A stretch of 41,908 nt of DNA from a virus: IMG/VR virus record IMGVR_UViG_3300009529_000016, positions 1 to 41,908 of that record; one strand, 5' to 3'. Shown piece after piece: positions 11,531 to 40,912 of this stretch; the first letter of the stretch is position 1, and every line of letters starts with the position of its first letter. The notes under the pieces are model-generated. The model had not been told where the DNA came from, ran no database searches, and saw only the letters and a program-made list of their open reading frames with translations. A program made the translations under genes and the position numbers.

Positions 11531-12556
11531 ATGGCAAAGCAGCTACTAAAGCTTTCCGACCTTTCAACGGAAGAGCTAGCCCACATTGAAGACGAAGTAG
11601 AAGCTACGCTAGCTACTATCTTCAAGATCAACACAAGACGGGCTAGCCTTTCGTTTGAAAGGCGTATGTCTGAAGCTGTTAACCGGGCTTGGAAGAAGGC
11701 GGCTAAGAACGCCATTACCGTTAGCTTGAAATTGCTAAAGGTAGCTAAGAAGCGGTTTACCGCTAAATCTATCAAAGCATTTCTAGCTAGGATAGGCGTA
11801 GCGCTAAAATCCCCGCTTACTTCAGCACAAGTAGACATATTAGGTAAGCGCCTTGAATCGATCTACAAGATAGGGAAGAAGCTAGCGGCTAAAGAAGCTA
11901 AGTTTAGTTTCAGCTTTAGAGCTAAAGACGCTAGGGCTATTAAGGCGCTAGGTAAGCAGCAAGTTTTCTGGATCGGTGATTTCTATAGTACGCAGCTATC
12001 AGAAAGGATCGCCGCTGTAACGGATGACATTTTATTACAGCGGGGGTTAGGCCCTAAAGAAGCCGGTAAGGAACTACAAAGGGTTCTAAGCCGTGAATTT
12101 GGGATCACCAAAGGGGGCAAGACAAGGGCCGCGCTACAAGTACCCGCCCGTTATGCTGGCAACCCCGAACATTACTTTAGACAAGTTGCGGCTAACGTAG
12201 CCCATAGGGCTAGAACGTTTGGCAAGATAACCGCCTTTCAAGAAGCGGGGATCACGCGTTACCGTTTGAATAATCCGATGGATTCTAGGACTGGTAGAGT
12301 ATGTCAAGTAATGCATGGCCAAGAATTTGATGTAGCAACAGGTGTTAAGCAAATGGATAAGATTCTTAATGCCACTTCACCTAAGCAGATCAAAACGCTT
12401 GCACCTTGGTTAAGCGGGGACGAAATAGAAGCAACGGTAGGTAACGCTAAGCCTGGAACTACGCAAGCAACGGAAGCGCTTACCGACGCTAACCAAATCC
12501 TCCCCCCATTTCACCCGCTCTGTAGGACAGAGCCGATCGTTGTATTTAAGAGCTAA
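11531..12556 (+). CDS. Mu F-like (SPP1 gp7-type) minor head protein
   Basis: A 341-residue protein. The N-terminal two thirds are Lys/Ala-rich helices. The C-terminal third carries the family signature: NPMDSRTGRVCQVMHGQEF (about 251-269) and PPFHPLCRTEPIVVF near the end. Proteins of this family sit next to the portal and act in head assembly or DNA ejection. No strong Shine-Dalgarno sequence is visible. The last 12 codons have a diverged copy at the end of the following endonuclease gene, whose start overlaps this stop as TAATG. Confidence 0.85.
   Translation: MAKQLLKLSDLSTEELAHIEDEVEATLATIFKINTRRASLSFERRMSEAVNRAWKKAAKNAITVSLKLLKVAKKRFTAKSIKAFLARIGVALKSPLTSAQVDILGKRLESIYKIGKKLAAKEAKFSFSFRAKDARAIKALGKQQVFWIGDFYSTQLSERIAAVTDDILLQRGLGPKEAGKELQRVLSREFGITKGGKTRAALQVPARYAGNPEHYFRQVAANVAHRARTFGKITAFQEAGITRYRLNNPMDSRTGRVCQVMHGQEFDVATGVKQMDKILNATSPKQIKTLAPWLSGDEIEATVGNAKPGTTQATEALTDANQILPPFHPLCRTEPIVVFKS
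12518..12556 (+). repeat. 3'-end duplication, copy A (Mu F-like gene end)
   Basis: The last 13 codons of the Mu F-like gene match 13387-13425 at 32 of 39 bases, and 11 of 12 amino acids are identical (LCRTEPIVVFK then S or R). Nearly all differences are at third codon positions, apart from the final sense codon and the stop. The copies flank the coding region of the endonuclease. Confidence 0.9.
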
Positions 12557-13425
12557 TGGGCCTAAGCGAAGAACATAAGCGTAAGATAGCCAAAGCGGTT
12601 AGTGCGGCTTGGACACCCGAAAGACGTAAAGCGCAAGCTGAGATTACTAGGCGCGTACATACTGGTAAGAAACGTTCTAAGGAAACACGCGATCGGTTGT
12701 CAGAAGCTAATAGACGCCGAACCCCGGAACAAAAGAAGGCGGCTACTAGTAAGGCAAACGAGAAAGTAAGAGCGCTAGCGGCTAGCGGCTTGTGGCATCC
12801 TGCCAAGGGCAAAAGACACCATAACAACACTAAGGATAAATCCGCAGCAATGCGGTTAGCAGCGGAAGCTAGACGCGGTTTGAATAATCCTGTCTATAAG
12901 GTAATAGACGGTCAAACCCATGCCGATCGTTGTAGGCTTACGCGTAAGCGTAATGGAACTACGATGAAGGGTAGGGCTAACCCCGCTTATGGGAAGGTCT
13001 ACGGATCTGGTATTAGGCGTTGTTGGCGGTTCTTGCCTAGCGGTTTTTTGGTTAGCTACCGATCAACTTGGGAATCGGCTTTTGCTGGATACCTTGAAGC
13101 GTTAGGTGTCGCGTATAACTACGAACCCAAGACTTTCTATTTTGACGGCTTCACGTATACCCCTGATTTCTATTTACCGGAGATCGACCTTTGGATCGAA
13201 GTGAAGGGGTATCTACGGGAAGACGACGAACAGAAGGTAGAAGCCTTACGGTCTAACGGGTATAACCTGCTTCTTATCGACGCTAACGCTTTTAAGCTAT
13301 TGGAGCTAGCAGCCTTCAAAGCTACAGCGATCGACATTGATAGTAGGCTTAGATCTAATGTAAGGCGGATCAGAAGAACAGATACCCTTTGTAGGACAGA
13401 ACCGATCGTAGTATTCAAAAGGTGA
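12556..13425 (+). CDS. Mobile (homing-type) endonuclease with NUMOD-like repeats and PD-(D/E)xK domain
   Basis: A 289-residue protein. Residues 1-110 are basic and contain repeated short helical motifs like the NUMOD3 DNA-binding modules of homing endonucleases (LSEEHKRKIAKA, SKETRDRLSEANRR and NTKDKSAAMRLAAEA). Residues 168-245 form a nuclease domain with candidate catalytic E173, D204 (YTPDFYLPE), E215 and K217 (IEVKGY), resembling the Vsr-like/EDxHD group. The last 12 residues (278-289) copy the C-terminus of the upstream Mu F-like protein. It starts by TAATG coupling. It is a selfish insert in the head operon and has no obvious virion role. Confidence 0.85.
   Translation: MGLSEEHKRKIAKAVSAAWTPERRKAQAEITRRVHTGKKRSKETRDRLSEANRRRTPEQKKAATSKANEKVRALAASGLWHPAKGKRHHNNTKDKSAAMRLAAEARRGLNNPVYKVIDGQTHADRCRLTRKRNGTTMKGRANPAYGKVYGSGIRRCWRFLPSGFLVSYRSTWESAFAGYLEALGVAYNYEPKTFYFDGFTYTPDFYLPEIDLWIEVKGYLREDDEQKVEALRSNGYNLLLIDANAFKLLELAAFKATAIDIDSRLRSNVRRIRRTDTLCRTEPIVVFKR
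13387..13425 (+). repeat. 3'-end duplication, copy B (endonuclease gene end)
   Basis: The last 13 codons of the endonuclease gene re-encode the C-terminus of the Mu F-like protein in the same reading frame, with 32 of 39 bases matching 12518-12556. This may be the original 3' end of the invaded gene, now fused to the endonuclease. Confidence 0.9.
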
Positions 13426-24417: not shown

Positions 24418-24852
24418 ATGACGATTAACGCTAATTGTCTACAGGTGAAGCCAGATTATTCGCTACACCGTACTAGGGGATCAACCCCTGATAACATAGT
24501 GTCCCTAGACGCTTTGATCGAAGTACCCGGTAACAAGCAAGCGGCGATCAGTTGTAGGGGTTGGGATACTGTTAGGGTACTAGTCGCTATCGTTGGGGGC
24601 GGGGCTACGGCAACTATCCAACCCCTTGAACATATCGAAGCTGTAAACGGTTTCCCAAATCGTACTGATGTTGATCAGGGTTTTGTAGCGCTAGGGGCTG
24701 CTACAGCGGGGGCGGTAGACGGGGATACGTTTAGCGTTACCGTTAATCAGGCTAGGCTATTCCTTCAGATTACAGCGCTAGCCGGGGCAACCGCCGTTAG
24801 GCTTTACGTTGCTGGCGAAACTAGAGCTAACAGCCCCGTAGAAGGAAGGTAG
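24418..24852 (+). CDS. Virion-region protein, paralogue A of a tandem pair
   Basis: A 144-residue beta-rich protein. It shares with the next gene the segments LHRT, CRGWD, VDGDTF and RLYVAG, and the end RANSPVE-x-R. AGGAGA lies upstream of the ATG. It may be a decoration or collar protein. No family is recognised. Confidence 0.65.
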   Translation: MTINANCLQVKPDYSLHRTRGSTPDNIVSLDALIEVPGNKQAAISCRGWDTVRVLVAIVGGGATATIQPLEHIEAVNGFPNRTDVDQGFVALGAATAGAVDGDTFSVTVNQARLFLQITALAGATAVRLYVAGETRANSPVEGR

Positions 24853-24855
24853 ACA

Positions 24856-25293
24856 ATGATAAACGATCTAAACCCAAAGCCGCTTTATGGGCTACACCGG
24901 ACAAAGACGGGATCCCCCGCTGTAATAGACGAAGCGGTAGTAAAGGATCTGTTTGAAGAGGTAGGACGAAATAGGGACTTCGTTAACTGTAGGGGTTGGG
25001 ATTCGATCAAGGTGCTAGTAGCCCTTGAAGGCGGGGTTACTCCTACGATCGATGTTCAGGCTTTTGAACACTGTAAGGCGGAAGACGGTTTCCCTTCTTA
25101 CACTAATCCAGACGAAGGCTTTACGCTGATCGGTACACCGGAAACCGGACTAGTAGACGGGGATACATTCACGGTTAGCGTTAAGCAGGGATTAGTTTAC
25201 CTTTCGATCGTGGCACTAACTAGCGTACCTACCGCGATCCGCCTTTATGTTGCGGGGGACGTTAGAGCTAACAGCCCCGTAGAAGCGAGGTAG
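24856..25293 (+). CDS. Virion-region protein, paralogue B of a tandem pair
   Basis: A 145-residue protein homologous to the previous gene along its whole length (for example NCRGWDSIKVLVALEGG against SCRGWDTVRVLVAIVGG, and both end SPVE-x-R). This is a tandem duplication that has since diverged. The start has GGAAGG upstream. The pair may form a hetero-oligomer or supply two binding specificities. Confidence 0.65.
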   Translation: MINDLNPKPLYGLHRTKTGSPAVIDEAVVKDLFEEVGRNRDFVNCRGWDSIKVLVALEGGVTPTIDVQAFEHCKAEDGFPSYTNPDEGFTLIGTPETGLVDGDTFTVSVKQGLVYLSIVALTSVPTAIRLYVAGDVRANSPVEAR

Positions 25294-35412: not shown

Positions 35413-36759
35413 ATGGCTAAGCGGGTAGATTCTAGGTTCACTTCATTAGGTGATGATCTAGCCCCTGATTTTGATTTGTCCATTAGCGGTAAAGACGCGG
35501 GGCCAGCTACGCAACTGTTTGAAGCTGTAAGACCACTAATCCAAAGTGTCACCTATGAAGAAGACGAAGATATGTCGTCTATGCTTACTATCATGGTAAT
35601 AAACCAACCCGAAATAAAGCTAGGGTATGGCGTTAACTGGAATGCGGTTCTTGATAGTAAGGCTTTCCAAGAAGGAAACTATATCGATCTCTTTATGGGC
35701 TACGGCGGGGTTAGACAATTCCAGGGGCGATCGGAGATCGTAAGCTGGTTACCAAACTTCACCCCCGAAGGAACGGGTAGCTTTGAAATAAAAGCCTATG
35801 ACGCTAGGCATAGGATGACGATCGGCAATAAGCCGAAGGCTGGTAATAAGCGGAAAGTAGCCTACCGCAATCTTTCTGATGAAATGATCGTTAAGCAGGT
35901 AGCTACTAAATACGGCTACGCTTCTAAGACGGATCCAACGGAGCACAAGAAACATAGCAGGGTAACGGTTAGGGCCGCTGGCGGTAAGACGGTTAAGAAA
36001 AGCTTTCTACCTACTAGGGTACAAAGTGCAGATACTACAGATTGGCAATTCCTAAAACGTCTAGCAGCGATCAACCGTTTTGATCTTTGGCTAGACTATG
36101 ACCTTTCAAAAAAACAATTCGTAGTTAACTTCAAGAAGCGGTTAGACACCGGACAACCGATCTACGAATTTACATATAATGGGTTAGACGGAAGCCTAAT
36201 AGAAGCTCAACCCGAATTCGCAGTAGACGAACAATCTACAGACGTAGAAGTTTTATACTTCGATCGGCGGAAGCGAGCTATAGAGCTAACCCAAGTAATC
36301 GATCAAACCAAATCAGAAAACGTAAAGCTAACTTCGGCTAAGCCGGGGGACCTTGAAGTTAAGAAGACTATGGCTAAGGGCGCTAGGGTTCGCTTTACCG
36401 CTTTCGGTCAAACCGTAGAAGCGTTTTCAGACAAGCCGTTTAGATCTAGGGGGGACGCTGAAACGTTCGTTAAGCATTGGTTGAAGGAACGGGAACGGGA
36501 TCTTATGATCCTTAAGGGTAGGGTTGTAGGTATTGAAACGCTTAGGCCCCGCCAATTCCACATATTCCAAGGTATGTCAAAACGGATAGACGGGATTTAC
36601 CGGCTAACACAAGTTAAGAAAACTATGATCCCCGGATCCCCGTTTGTCTGCGAATTCCTAGCACACAAGGTGCTAACGCAAAGGGTAGTTACCAAACCTA
36701 AGAGCGTAGCAAGGCGGAAGCGGAAGACGGTAAGCAAAGCCGGAAAGGTGATCAGCTAA
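35413..36759 (+). CDS. gpD-like baseplate hub protein
   Basis: A 448-residue protein similar to the late control protein D / VgrG-like hub. Features include an N-terminal beta-barrel region (DLFMGYGG, SWLPNF, IKAYDARHRMTIG), DTTDWQFLKRLAAINRFDLWLDYD (about 210-233), which is the classic hub signature, and a C-terminal domain ending in a Lys/Arg-rich tail. It forms the trimeric hub at the end of the tail tube and passes directly into the spike gene (TAATG). Confidence 0.85.
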   Translation: MAKRVDSRFTSLGDDLAPDFDLSISGKDAGPATQLFEAVRPLIQSVTYEEDEDMSSMLTIMVINQPEIKLGYGVNWNAVLDSKAFQEGNYIDLFMGYGGVRQFQGRSEIVSWLPNFTPEGTGSFEIKAYDARHRMTIGNKPKAGNKRKVAYRNLSDEMIVKQVATKYGYASKTDPTEHKKHSRVTVRAAGGKTVKKSFLPTRVQSADTTDWQFLKRLAAINRFDLWLDYDLSKKQFVVNFKKRLDTGQPIYEFTYNGLDGSLIEAQPEFAVDEQSTDVEVLYFDRRKRAIELTQVIDQTKSENVKLTSAKPGDLEVKKTMAKGARVRFTAFGQTVEAFSDKPFRSRGDAETFVKHWLKERERDLMILKGRVVGIETLRPRQFHIFQGMSKRIDGIYRLTQVKKTMIPGSPFVCEFLAHKVLTQRVVTKPKSVARRKRKTVSKAGKVIS

Positions 36760-37538
36760 TGACTATGACGTTTGAAATACAAGACGCGATCGTAACGAGC
36801 AACAAAGATCCGGCTAAGACAAACCGGATCAAGGTTGCTCTTCAGGATATGGAAGGGCAAGAATACCCGGAATGGATCGAACCCGTATTCCCGCCTTCGT
36901 TTTACGGTACACCGGAACCTGAACAAAAGGTTAAGGTGTTACTACCTGAAGGTTTGGACCTAGTAGAATTTGCCCACTTAGTACGTTACATAGGCGTTGT
37001 TTGGGACGAAGAAAACCCTATACCGCAAGACTTCCAAACTAATCACCCTTACCGCCATGGTATGCAAACTAAGGCGGGGCATACCCTGATGTTTGACGAT
37101 AAGACGGGGGACGTATGGCTATGGAACGGGAAGACAGCGGATTACATTAAGCTGTTGAAGAATAGCAACGTAGAAATAAAAGCCGCTGTTAAGTTTCTGG
37201 TAGAAACGGTTAACGTTGAATTGAAGGCTACCGCTAAGAATCATTTGAATAGCCCACTAACGGATCTATCAGACGTAGCTACAGACTTTATAATCAAGGG
37301 TACTACGTTTAACGTTCAAGTAGGTTTGCTTTACGCGCTATGGCTTACTTACCAAACTACGCTTAAGGCTATTCAAGCCGAATGGAAGAGTTTTGCTAGT
37401 AGCGGTCTTCCGTGGATTCCGGTAACGCTTACACAGACGGCTTTTGAAGCAGCACAAACCGCGTTGATAACCGGGATAGGTGCTTACACTACTGCGGGGG
37501 TTCCCGCGTTTACTTCTTTGAAAGTGAAGACGGGGTAA
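36759..37538 (+). CDS. OB-fold baseplate spike protein (gpV / gp5-like)
   Basis: A 259-residue protein. Residues 5-100 form an OB-fold-like barrel (NRIKVALQDMEGQEYPEWIEPVFPP, KVKVLLPEGLDLVEFA, RYIGVVWDE), followed by GMQTKAGHTLMFDDKTGDVWLWN, the start of a beta-helical spike, and a helical C-terminal half. No lysozyme domain is visible. It is the membrane-piercing spike under the hub. Start ATG 36759 overlaps the hub stop. Confidence 0.75.
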   Translation: MTMTFEIQDAIVTSNKDPAKTNRIKVALQDMEGQEYPEWIEPVFPPSFYGTPEPEQKVKVLLPEGLDLVEFAHLVRYIGVVWDEENPIPQDFQTNHPYRHGMQTKAGHTLMFDDKTGDVWLWNGKTADYIKLLKNSNVEIKAAVKFLVETVNVELKATAKNHLNSPLTDLSDVATDFIIKGTTFNVQVGLLYALWLTYQTTLKAIQAEWKSFASSGLPWIPVTLTQTAFEAAQTALITGIGAYTTAGVPAFTSLKVKTG

Positions 37539-37542
37539 CGCA

Positions 37543-37914
37543 ATGGCGCAAGGGGCAACCATACCCGCTAAGATCCGTAACGGTAGGCTTGTTAAGATTA
37601 GCGGCAACGAATACATTAGACAGCTATTGATGCTCGCCTTCGGTGAAGGGGAATCGGATAACCCGTTCCAAGATCTTGGACTAGGCGAATTTATGATCTT
37701 CGCTATTAATGACGCTGAATCGGAAGGCGACATACGCCCAAGGGTAGAGCGTATGTTTGAAAGCTTCGAACGCGATCAGCTAGCGCGGTTAGACAACCCC
37801 GCCGATGATATCGAGTTTTTTCAATCTGAAGCTGATAAGTATATGGTAGTACGCTACCGCGATCTTGAAACACAAGAACGGGTAGAAGTTGAAGTACCGA
37901 TCCCTACCCCATAA
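37543..37914 (+). CDS. gp25-like baseplate wedge protein
   Basis: A 123-residue protein with the size and layout of gp25/gpW-family wedge proteins: an N-terminal strand and helix, then GEGESDNPFQDLGLGEFMIF, a helical middle, and a strand pair ending VVRYRDLETQERVEVEVPI. It connects wedge and sheath in contractile tails. It is normally followed at once by gpJ; here the HNH gene intervenes. Confidence 0.75.
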   Translation: MAQGATIPAKIRNGRLVKISGNEYIRQLLMLAFGEGESDNPFQDLGLGEFMIFAINDAESEGDIRPRVERMFESFERDQLARLDNPADDIEFFQSEADKYMVVRYRDLETQERVEVEVPIPTP

Positions 37915-37944
37915 AGGAAGGTTTAGCTATGACGCTAATAACCG
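37914..37944 (+). repeat. 5'-end duplication, copy 1 (RBS and first codons at the HNH gene)
   Basis: A 31-nt stretch covering AAGGAAGGT, a 6-nt spacer, ATG and the codons for MTLIT matches 38441-38471 at 25 of 31 bases without gaps. Five of the six differences are in the spacer. It precedes and begins the HNH endonuclease gene. Confidence 0.85.
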
Positions 37945-38381
37945 AATGTCCACAACAGCGCTACCTAGAAGCTGTAGTAAAGGTAGTTCCTTGTTCTTGC
38001 GGTTGTGGATCTTTGGTTGAAGTGAAGCGCTATGCTACTTTTCCTAGCTACATGAAGAAGCGAAAATACAAAGGGCATTTTATATTAGGCCATAAATCAA
38101 AAGAAGAATTAGAAGCCACTAAAGAACGTAACGCCAAACGTGATTACTTGTCAGGTGAAGACGCGTTACATTGGAAGGGCGGTAAGTTTACTGATAAGAA
38201 CGGTTACGTTTGGATTAACGTTAACGGTGAATTTAGACAGGAACACCGTTTAGTAGTAGAGAAAGCGCTAGGGCGAAAACTAAAGCCTAATGAAATAATC
38301 CATCACAAAAAACGTGGTAACAAAGCAAATAACAGCTTGTCTAATCTGAAACTGACAAACCGATCAGATCATGCTCGCTAG
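37929..38381 (+). CDS. HNH homing endonuclease inserted in the baseplate operon
   Basis: A 150-residue protein. An N-terminal Cys cluster (C22, C24 and C26) is followed by a basic linker and a classic HNH_3-type core: EHRLVVEKALGRKLKPNEIIHHKKR with H106, H125 and H126, then NNSLSNLKLTNRSDHAR with N139. It starts MTLIT, as does the next gene, and shares the upstream AAGGAAGGT. Codons look more A/T-rich than in the neighbouring baseplate genes, in line with recent arrival. A selfish mobile element; no virion role is expected. Confidence 0.9.
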   Translation: MTLITECPQQRYLEAVVKVVPCSCGCGSLVEVKRYATFPSYMKKRKYKGHFILGHKSKEELEATKERNAKRDYLSGEDALHWKGGKFTDKNGYVWINVNGEFRQEHRLVVEKALGRKLKPNEIIHHKKRGNKANNSLSNLKLTNRSDHAR

Positions 38382-38440
38382 CATGATAAAGATCGACAAA
38401 GGGATAGCTTAGGGCGCTATACATCGTATACCAGAAGGCT

Positions 38441-38471
38441 AAGGAAGGTGAACTAATGACGCTTATAACCG
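38441..38471 (+). repeat. 5'-end duplication, copy 2 (RBS and first codons of the gpJ-like gene)
   Basis: This is the counterpart of 37914-37944 and gives the ribosome binding site, ATG and MTLIT start of the baseplate gene. Together the copies bracket the HNH gene and its 74-bp downstream spacer. Confidence 0.85.
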
Positions 38472-40912
38472 TCCCCGACGTTGATTGGAGCGGTTTCTAC
38501 TATCCCGATATTCTACGCGAGCTACTGTTACAGCTTAGGCGTAAGCGGGAAGAGATCGGGCTTACCGACGAAAACGAATACGAACTACACGTTCAGTTTA
38601 TGCGATCACTGGCCCTAGTAGGCCACTTGAATAACTGTAGAGCAGACGTGATCGCTACGGAGCTACTGTTAGCTTCTTCTAGTTTGCTTGAAAGCGCTAA
38701 GCGCCTTCTTCGGTTGATCGGTGTAGAGCTTGCTTCAGCTACTCCGGCTAAAGCAGACGTAGTGTTAACGCTAAGCGAAGTTACAACGCTAGACCTTACA
38801 GCGTTCATACCGGAGTTAGCGGAGTTTTCAACCGATAGTGTACCGCCGATCGCTTACGAAGTTTTGGAAGAAGACGGGATCGATCTAGATAGAACAGATC
38901 AGGTTAGCTACGTCTTCGGCTTGGAAAAGGTGAAGACAGGGGCGGGGCAAGTAGACACCGGATCCCCGGATATCTTTACCCGTACAAGCGGGGATAGCTT
39001 TGTAATTGGTACAGACGAAGCTAGACACCTTTTTATCCCCGCTGGAATAGGATCAAACGGCGGGGAATTCCGGGTAGTGGAAGTGATCGATACGGACAAC
39101 GTTAGGGTAGTTCGTGTTCCGGGTAGCGGATCCCCCGGCTTCCAATCTGAAGCTAGCCTTACTTGGGTTCTAATGGCGTTTACTGCTAACTACGCTACTG
39201 AAGCTAACACCGGTAGTAGCTTCTTTAGCCCTTGGGCTAGCCTTGAAGTAGGGGACCTTTTGTTTATCGGACATGATCAGATCCAATGGGATCAGATTGA
39301 TCTGATCCTTAATACACCGGGGGCGGGGTTCACAGGGGTATGGGAATACTTTGATGATCGGTTTAGTCTGTTTACCCCCGCCGCAGACGTAACAGACAAC
39401 GGATCAAACCTTACCGCAGACGTAACAACGTTGTTAGGTACACCCGATAGATCCGGGGCTGAAGTAAAGATCGAATACGTACCAACCGGATCACAAGAAA
39501 CCGTAGTATCTACTTTCAGCGGCGGTAAGAACGTAATTACTACCCAAGGTCTGTTAGGGCAAACCGCGATAGACACCGATAAGGATAACTACCGCATAAC
39601 CGCCCAATGGGTACCAGTAGACAACGTAGACGATCAGACGCTTAACTTTCAGCAAGACGATAGCGTTACCTTTGATCATCCCCAAGATTCTGAACGCGGT
39701 TGGCAAAAGGCGGAAGTAGATTTAAATGAAGCAGAGTTTATACGCTACCGCGTATTAACGGTAGCTGGCCCTACCGAACCGTCGATCGATAGGCTACAGA
39801 TAGATCAGGGTAGCCAGTATTTGAACGTAGAAGTAACGCAAGGTGAAACCGTCGGGCCGCAAGACCTAGGGACTTCAGATGGTAGCGCCTTCCAAGAATT
39901 TGAGCTACCAGATACACCCCTATTTGATGACTCTGAATTGATAGAAGTAGACGAATCGGGGGGCGGTACCTGGATCATATATACCGGAGTAGCGAATTTT
40001 CTAAACTCTACCGCTACAAGTAGACACTACATTAGGGAAACAAACGCAGGCGGTAAGGGAACGATCCGCTTCGGGGATGGTACGAACGGTAAGATACCCC
40101 CGGCTACTGCGGATATCCGGGGAACGTATAGAATAGGCGGGGACGAAGACGGTAACGTAGGGATAGGCCAGATCAGCGTTAACGCAGACGGGATAGGCGG
40201 GGTAGGGGAAGTAAGCAACCCGCGATCGGCTACCGATTGGAAACAGAAAGACGGGGCAACCGAAGACGATCTAGAACGTGTAAAGCGAGATAGCCCCGCC
40301 GCGCTTAGGACAAGGCAAACCGCGTCTAACCCTTCCGACGTTTTGAGGTTAGCGCTAACCGCTTTTAGAGATCGTAACGGGGTTAACCCGGTAGCTAGGG
40401 TTTTTGCTATCGAGGAAGGGTTAGGCGTTAAGACGATCAAGCTTCTAGTAGTTGGAAGCGGGGGCCGAACACTTACAGCGGAAGAGAAAGAAGATCTAGA
40501 AGAATACTTTAACGGTAACCGTAACGTGATTCCGATCGTTGAAGGCGTACTACTGATGAACTATAAGGTCTTCGTCTTCAACTACGAACCGCTAGTTACT
40601 TCGGTTACCGCTAACGTTGTTTGGCCAGGGGGAAACCAACAATCGATCCGTAACGCTTTGTTGAACCTGCTTACCCCGCTATCGTTTGAAGAAGACGGGC
40701 TAACGTATACTTGGGTATTCGGCGGTAGGATCGCTTTCAGTAGGATCCATTCCGAGATCCACCTAGTAAACCCGTCTATTCAAAACGTATCAGCCTTAAC
40801 GGTAAACGGGGTTAGCCCAACGGTTTTGATTTCAGGTATCACGTTAGGCGCTAATCAGCTACCTACTTCGGTATCCGGCGGTATAACGATCAACATTTTG
40901 GAATCGCTTTAA
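38456..40912 (+). CDS. gpJ-like baseplate wedge protein
   Basis: An 818-residue protein. The N-terminal part (ELLLQLRRKREEIGLTDENEYELHVQFMRSLALVGHLNN) and the C-terminal core (ENAGGKGTIRFGDG-like segment at about 525, GATEDDLERVKRDSPAALRTRQTASNPSDVLRLA at about 600, and EEGLGVKTIKLLVVGSGG) match the baseplate J family. A long variable insertion fills the middle (about 140-510), so the protein is larger than P2 gpJ. It forms the wedges that link hub, sheath and fibres. A repeat hairpin follows its stop. Confidence 0.85.
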   Translation: MTLITVPDVDWSGFYYPDILRELLLQLRRKREEIGLTDENEYELHVQFMRSLALVGHLNNCRADVIATELLLASSSLLESAKRLLRLIGVELASATPAKADVVLTLSEVTTLDLTAFIPELAEFSTDSVPPIAYEVLEEDGIDLDRTDQVSYVFGLEKVKTGAGQVDTGSPDIFTRTSGDSFVIGTDEARHLFIPAGIGSNGGEFRVVEVIDTDNVRVVRVPGSGSPGFQSEASLTWVLMAFTANYATEANTGSSFFSPWASLEVGDLLFIGHDQIQWDQIDLILNTPGAGFTGVWEYFDDRFSLFTPAADVTDNGSNLTADVTTLLGTPDRSGAEVKIEYVPTGSQETVVSTFSGGKNVITTQGLLGQTAIDTDKDNYRITAQWVPVDNVDDQTLNFQQDDSVTFDHPQDSERGWQKAEVDLNEAEFIRYRVLTVAGPTEPSIDRLQIDQGSQYLNVEVTQGETVGPQDLGTSDGSAFQEFELPDTPLFDDSELIEVDESGGGTWIIYTGVANFLNSTATSRHYIRETNAGGKGTIRFGDGTNGKIPPATADIRGTYRIGGDEDGNVGIGQISVNADGIGGVGEVSNPRSATDWKQKDGATEDDLERVKRDSPAALRTRQTASNPSDVLRLALTAFRDRNGVNPVARVFAIEEGLGVKTIKLLVVGSGGRTLTAEEKEDLEEYFNGNRNVIPIVEGVLLMNYKVFVFNYEPLVTSVTANVVWPGGNQQSIRNALLNLLTPLSFEEDGLTYTWVFGGRIAFSRIHSEIHLVNPSIQNVSALTVNGVSPTVLISGITLGANQLPTSVSGGITINILESL

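Follow-up and report, generated by a model that had tools for sequence, protein, structure and literature searches.

We found that an HNH endonuclease gene in the window, that is, the whole 41,908-base virus record analysed here, begins with the same ribosome site and first codons as the gpJ-like baseplate gene that follows it. Judging from the sequence, it is rather probable that the HNH gene inserted within the native gpJ start, appropriated it for its own translation and supplied gpJ with a new one. The insertion of this putative free-standing homing endonuclease gene between the upstream gene and gpJ would have followed a cut or nick made by the enzyme in the gpJ start. The original gpJ ribosome site and opening codons would have stayed upstream, where they would now start the HNH gene, and the insert would have carried a gpJ start of its own, from a related phage, so that gpJ kept a ribosome site and an unchanged N-terminus. 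Such a patch would keep the essential gene working, and it may in addition ruin the nuclease target. The changes in the spacer (five of six) and at one silent site are those that would be expected of two working gpJ starts evolved in separate genomes. The duplicated end of an invaded gene stands on both sides of an endonuclease at two places in this genome, 5' at gpJ and 3' at a head gene. In this mirror arrangement the nuclease would have brought a gene end recoded at silent positions, and the native one would have moved onto the nuclease C-terminus. The 5' version appears in the window alone.

The two starts at the gpJ junction

The gene upstream of the junction (37543-37914, plus strand, 123 aa) had been called gp25; position is all that speaks for this name, since blastp, hhalign and Pfam/PHROGs gave no match, and a single-sequence structure model of the protein had a pLDDT of 41, too poor to use. 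It is followed by the free-standing HNH endonuclease gene (37929-38381, plus strand, 150 aa), a separate ORF assigned to PHROG HNH endonucleases, with an HNH_3 domain at residues 106-150 (PF13392, E 3.9e-7, 30.0 bits, over the cut-off of 24.8, spanning profile positions 4-46 of 46). The gpJ-like baseplate wedge gene (38456-40912, plus strand) matches PHROG 219 baseplate wedge (E 8e-12) and has distant baseplate J relatives. It is a single ORF of 818 aa with its own ribosome site, not split into two reading frames, and an insertion that splits its host gene, of the Aeh1 mobE type, was therefore ruled out. In three annotated Streptomyces phages the corresponding protein has 511 aa, and that of the window has much additional sequence in the N-terminal half.

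Copy 1 (37914-37944) reads AAGGAAGGT TTAGCT ATGACGCTAATAACCG and copy 2 (38441-38471) reads AAGGAAGGT GAACTA ATGACGCTTATAACCG, with identity at 25 of 31 bases. The ribosome-site blocks (37914-37922, overlapping the TAA stop of the upstream gene, and 38441-38449) are equal at 9/9 bases and the 6-base spacers at 1/6. The start codon and the 13 bases after it (37929-37944 in the HNH gene, 38456-38471 in the gpJ-like gene, all on the plus strand) agree at 15/16, both encoding MTLIT, and the sole coding difference, CTA/CTT, is silent. These values bear out the original prediction, namely that both genes share a ribosome site and MTLIT codons one silent base apart and that their spacers differ (5/6 bases changed). 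The likeness breaks off directly after ...ACCG, the first base of codon 6, and upstream of AAGG the copies have no clear match, with a TAA abutting or overlapping each of them. In the reading proposed above, copy 1 would be the native ribosome site and start of gpJ, now serving the HNH gene, copy 2, the working gpJ start, would be an element-borne patch, and the 59-nt spacer that separates the HNH stop from copy 2 (38382-38440, plus strand) would be part of the insert. The block AAGGAAGGT is a native ribosome site of the window, present in five copies, so the weight rests on the coding match. The shared coding part, with 1 silent change in 13 bases, comprises five codons, too short for a selection test, and codon use in the first 30 codons of gpJ is not clearly atypical (z -1.4, 4th lowest among 31 genes).

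Among all pairs of the 49 gene starts in the window the HNH/gpJ pair is the best, with 15/16 against 13/16 for the runner-up. When codons were resampled from the 41 remaining gene starts, a match at 12/13 bases after the ATG had P ~8e-5 per pair. With ~48 neighbouring pairs, the coding part by itself would be matched by chance in roughly 0.4% of genomes, and the ribosome-site match, which is exact over 9 bases in 2/820 pairs among those other 41 genes, lowers this much further. In the wider survey of 8,668 neighbouring ORF pairs (452 records), four pairs reached at least 12/13 start bases, and both a 12/13 coding match and a 9/9 ribosome-site block occurred only in the window and in a dispersed repeat (L072). 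Of the other two 12/13 matches, one, rejected as evidence, comprises adjacent internal-protein genes in a T4-like phage (L112) and lacks the 9/9 block, and the other is a GC-rich ORF pair (L441) with a ribosome-site block of 2/9. An HNH pair with 11/13 bases and a block of 3/9 (L045) was taken for chance. The search of HNH genes for a start shared with the next gene thus returned the window pair and none besides (1/338 HNH-first ORF pairs). Start matches of this kind are not common by chance, given both the P of ~8e-5 per pair and their rarity in the survey, and a chance origin of the start duplication is very unlikely.

An uninterrupted junction was sought in relatives of the window phage. 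For 36759-40912, blastn gave no DNA match in 50,697 phage records. IMG/VR scans with gpJ, the HNH gene, the upstream gene and the terminase returned only near-identical contigs of sample 3300024433, of which the one covering the site also has the insert and shows a single mismatch over 6,038 bases, and a gpJ search of genome contigs gave no relative. Hence no relative without the HNH gene at this junction was found in the phage records, IMG/VR and genome contigs searched. Wider gpJ searches reached relatives at 24-36% identity, and 13 IMG/VR loci at 26-36% are usable for gene order only. A readable gpJ ORF is present in 11/13 of these loci, the other two having no closed gpJ ORF. In 8/11 (L010, L013, L014, L016, L017, L018, L019 and L022, with L013/L014 and L016-L018 being near-identical sets) an ORF of 130-145 aa abuts or overlaps gpJ with nothing between them, and at L015, L020 and L021 (3/11) the upstream gene is not clearly readable. 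Also, the baseplate wedge gene overlaps baseplate J in 3/3 annotated Streptomyces phages, and in those distant relatives where both gpJ and the gene before it are readable, no HNH gene stands at the gpJ junction. Since the upstream gene abuts gpJ in most of these distant relatives, the HNH gene was likely inserted between the two, by the evidence of gene order; the original gpJ start is not given thereby. The expected uninterrupted junction is therefore met with in distant relatives, but not in a close HNH-free relative that could be aligned.

Duplicated 3' ends in the window and in other phages

The 3' case of the window involves a Mu gpF-like minor head gene (11531-12556, plus strand), whose last codons are duplicated, and an endonuclease gene of 289 aa with a NUMOD3 motif (12556-13425, plus strand). 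The latter is EndoI-like by PHROG 9019 (E 1e-17), with Pfam matches to PF05367 (E 2.8e-5, 24.2 bits, below the cut-off of 29.1) and PF07460 (20.8 bits). The block encoding LCRTEPIVVFK ends the head gene (12518-12552) and recurs at the end of the endonuclease gene (13387-13421), both on the plus strand. The two copies differ at 5 of 33 bases without altering any amino acid, a silence that free drift of one copy would give at P 0.00025. The last ~30 codons of the head gene are atypical (z -2.7 and -2.8 in windows of 20 codons), and the endonuclease-side copy has typical codons (z +0.9). The atypicality is driven by two CTC codons, CTC making up 10/806 leucine codons elsewhere, and the head-gene tail ranks sixth from the bottom among the 1,730 30-codon windows over all genes. 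Codon usage thus suggests that the head-gene tail is foreign, a mark that is not unique in the genome. The block in the head gene would be the element-borne patch, and the one in the endonuclease gene the displaced native end. As had been predicted, two different nuclease families, HNH and EndoI-like, stand at duplicated gene ends in one genome. Another pair with shared ends (24418-24852 and 24856-25293, 144 and 145 aa, in a structural operon) was rejected as tandem paralogs by alignment.

An empty site was available for a 3' duplication in Gordonia phage Pupper, found by tblastn of the window's endonuclease against phages. The Pupper tail sheath and the next gene, an endonuclease of the same broad kind as the EndoI-like enzyme of the window, both end in ...EVNETSV, and the 98%-identical relative CherryTomatoes is without this endonuclease. 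Over the last 1,097 bases of the two sheath genes, 1 codon differs before the final 24, whereas 14 of those last 24 codons differ, all silently. The Pupper endonuclease overlaps the sheath stop, its last 8 codons with the stop (24 bases) are the native CherryTomatoes sheath end, and downstream of the insert 60/60 bases equal CherryTomatoes. This comparison shows that the element brought a recoded sheath end and that the endonuclease now bears the native one, displaced from the sheath gene. Phage SCentae has the same arrangement as Pupper. A donor of the patch was not found in the phage collection, where only Pupper, SCentae and CherryTomatoes matched. In our set of loci the Pupper patch and endonuclease lie at L111 2020-2806, and the CherryTomatoes empty site is L123. 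The earlier idea that the boundary was duplicated at insertion holds insofar as the end is duplicated, but it was probably not copied from the target, given that the extra end in Pupper is element-borne and recoded.

The survey for shared gene ends covered 452 records less 7 duplicates, chosen because they bear nucleases. ORFs had at least 60 aa and were taken with the longest start, and neighbours were on the same strand with the next start at -60 to +250 bases, criteria by which many of the 8,668 are not true pairs of genes; the classes of nuclease were assigned by regular expression. Shared C-termini occurred in 8/389 pairs with a nuclease second and in 4/8,279 other pairs. Two HNH-HNH pairs (L341 and L447), tandem paralogs judged from segments, were dropped before the Fisher count. 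With these and the window excluded, the counts are 5/386 for nucleases against 4/8,279 (P 1.9e-5), and 3/380 against 4/8,279 for HNH alone (P 0.003). Of the four non-nuclease scorers, one consists of tandem paralogs by alignment, L072/L246 is a dispersed repeat, and L198 and L269, judged by eye, look like paralogy or low complexity. At L072 (3300-4000) an exact repeat of ~26 bases recurs at starts and ends of several small genes, with no nuclease link seen.

Beyond the window and Pupper, the survey yielded four independent 3' cases (L090, L262, L328 and L340), three of them with HNH enzymes. At L090 the end RFRMQQISLT, with 4 silent codon changes, is common to an EndoI-like endonuclease and a gene that tblastn relates to tail sheaths. 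Being a second sheath-like gene with a shared end, it suggests that sheath ends may be a repeated target. This case lies at 99-1832, and an HNH gene then follows at 2261-2992. At L262 a gene and an HNH gene share GVFTLA with 3 silent changes. Relatives of this gene, which include an annotated minor tail protein, end in VFTLS or VLTLA and have no HNH gene after them (two records), and they are too distant for a base-level test. The 60-kb virus record of L262 (G004) contains six HNH_3 matches. In the case at L328 (59-1941, reverse strand), in a genome from the phylum of G003, the last 29 residues are common to an HNH gene and a gene called tape-measure-like from its own sequence, with silent changes in 22 codons. 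A second empty site was looked for here in 19 other genomes of the family, with no match. At L340 (786-1914, reverse strand) the HNH C-terminus resembles that of the preceding gene, with amino-acid changes between the two; the HNH C-terminus also hits a Pfam holin profile at the profile's last 24 positions, and the preceding gene was taken for a holin. Differences over the shared stretch are silent only in the 3' case of the window, L090, L262, L328 and Pupper, and not in L340.

The 3'-end version is thus recurrent, has an empty site in another phage and involves both EndoI-like and HNH enzymes. The original prediction went further in proposing a general strategy of free-standing homing endonucleases. 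This is too strong: the 3' type does recur, but most HNH genes have no shared end (the 3' version is present in 3/286 distinct HNH ORFs) and the 5' type was seen only in the window. Most EndoI-like relatives also lack shared ends (L110, L112, L113, L114 and L116-L121).

Other possible origins of the second gpJ start

A target-site duplication would leave a direct repeat on both sides of the insert, as is observed. Staggered cuts, or two separated nicks, at the gpJ start would be filled in to give identical 31-base copies that drifted later, and some phage HNH homing enzymes are described, in the available part of a review, as nicking their targets (PMC2988022). We consider this origin unlikely. 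The 6-base spacer accounts for five of the six changes, whereas the silent positions and the HNH-side MTLIT codons, on which no constraint should act, are nearly unchanged, and drift would be expected to cost the HNH side its MTLIT codons. Moreover, in the tested 3' case of Pupper the extra copy is recoded and foreign-looking, and is no native copy.

Recombination at shared starts, by which an HNH gene with a similar start arrived through a crossover in short homology and has no rescue role, would fit with phage nucleases reported at the borders of exchanged segments (PMC10448857, in the part of the source at hand). It seems quite improbable, as two unrelated genes would already have had to agree at some 25 bases, and the silent recoding in the 3' cases is left unexplained. 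The HNH start could also resemble the enzyme's own target at the gpJ start, so that the enzyme binds there and lowers its own expression, as is reported for I-TevI, with no rescue involved. For I-TevI the homing site and the operator just upstream of its gene have 15/20 identity, according to the accessible text (PMC2988022). However, the I-TevI mimic is in a promoter, whereas here a ribosome site and codons are concerned, an intact presumed target would be left in the same genome, and the 3' duplications would not be explained; we give this possibility a very small chance. An independent favoured translation start, with a common ribosome site and a similar short N-terminus arising by chance, is hardly credible: AAGGAAGGT is native with 5 copies and MT also opens other genes, e.g. 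those at 36759 and 24418, but the match has P ~8e-5 per pair in the coding part and 2/820 in the ribosome site, and, one dispersed repeat aside, the two together are seen nowhere else among the 8,668 pairs.

Relation to known systems and consequences

The closest known parallel to the 3' phage cases is that of the fungal mitochondrial mORFs, with duplicated C-termini of host genes in Allomyces (atp6) and Glomus (atp6, atp9, cox2 and nad3) (PMC3630166). As far as the accessible portion of that report goes, the endonuclease gene likewise adjoins a duplicate end of the gene that it invaded; the host gene owes its completion to the inserted copy, and the native copy lies beyond the endonuclease. 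The copies differ far more in DNA than in protein, and the protein end is largely kept (PMC3630166). In contrast, the fungal elements are mitochondrial, encode LAGLIDADG or GIY-YIG enzymes and, in that portion, always involve the 3' end (PMC3630166), whereas the present ones are in phages, have HNH or EndoI-like enzymes and include one 5' end. What is new relative to the mORFs is therefore the phage setting, the other nuclease families and, in the window case, the 5' end. Mitochondrial introns of Tremella fuciformis, in the part of the report available, are also mobile elements that contain a homolog of the exon next to them, which has been proposed to take the place of the host's own fragment (PMC7315562). 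They differ in being introns and in the position of the copy, which is termed N-terminal but corresponds to the following exon and lies at the intron 5' end; we read this as the 3' arrangement despite the label (PMC7315562).

Free-standing homing endonucleases of the T4 type resemble the window case in that phage HNH genes stand at or in essential genes (PMC2988022). The accessible text of this review describes mobE in Aeh1 nrdA and mobA in T4 gene 60 as splitting the host gene, whereas here the gene is kept whole through a duplicated end; the word stem 'duplicat' is absent from that text (PMC2988022). The literature that we searched, which covered few subscription papers, yielded no description of recoded gene ends carried by phage endonucleases.

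A broader reading can be put forward tentatively. Phage free-standing endonucleases, of at least two families, may be natural home-and-rescue elements at either end of essential virion genes, with a silently recoded end that preserves the gene's function and protects it from being cut again, and the HNH-gpJ pair would be the first with a 5' patch, made up of a ribosome site and start codons. If this is true, it would explain how selfish endonuclease genes sit in packed operons of essential virion genes without harm. The nuclease would also be hard to lose, since imprecise removal would damage the rescued gene. In addition, a natural counterpart of the engineered home-and-rescue drives would become testable in a simple phage cross. 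The HomeR element reportedly carries a recoded rescue copy. Like the proposed phage elements, this synthetic home-and-rescue drive has a homing nuclease aimed at an essential gene, but it was engineered in Drosophila with Cas9, as stated in the part of the source available, whereas the phage elements are natural (PMC7968924). For annotation, the reading would carry the warning that the ends of phage structural genes and the adjoining nucleases can be transplants.

As a separate observation, the major capsid gene of Bacillus phage SP-15 (L109, 1482-3999) is annotated as two joined pieces around an EndoI-like endonuclease.
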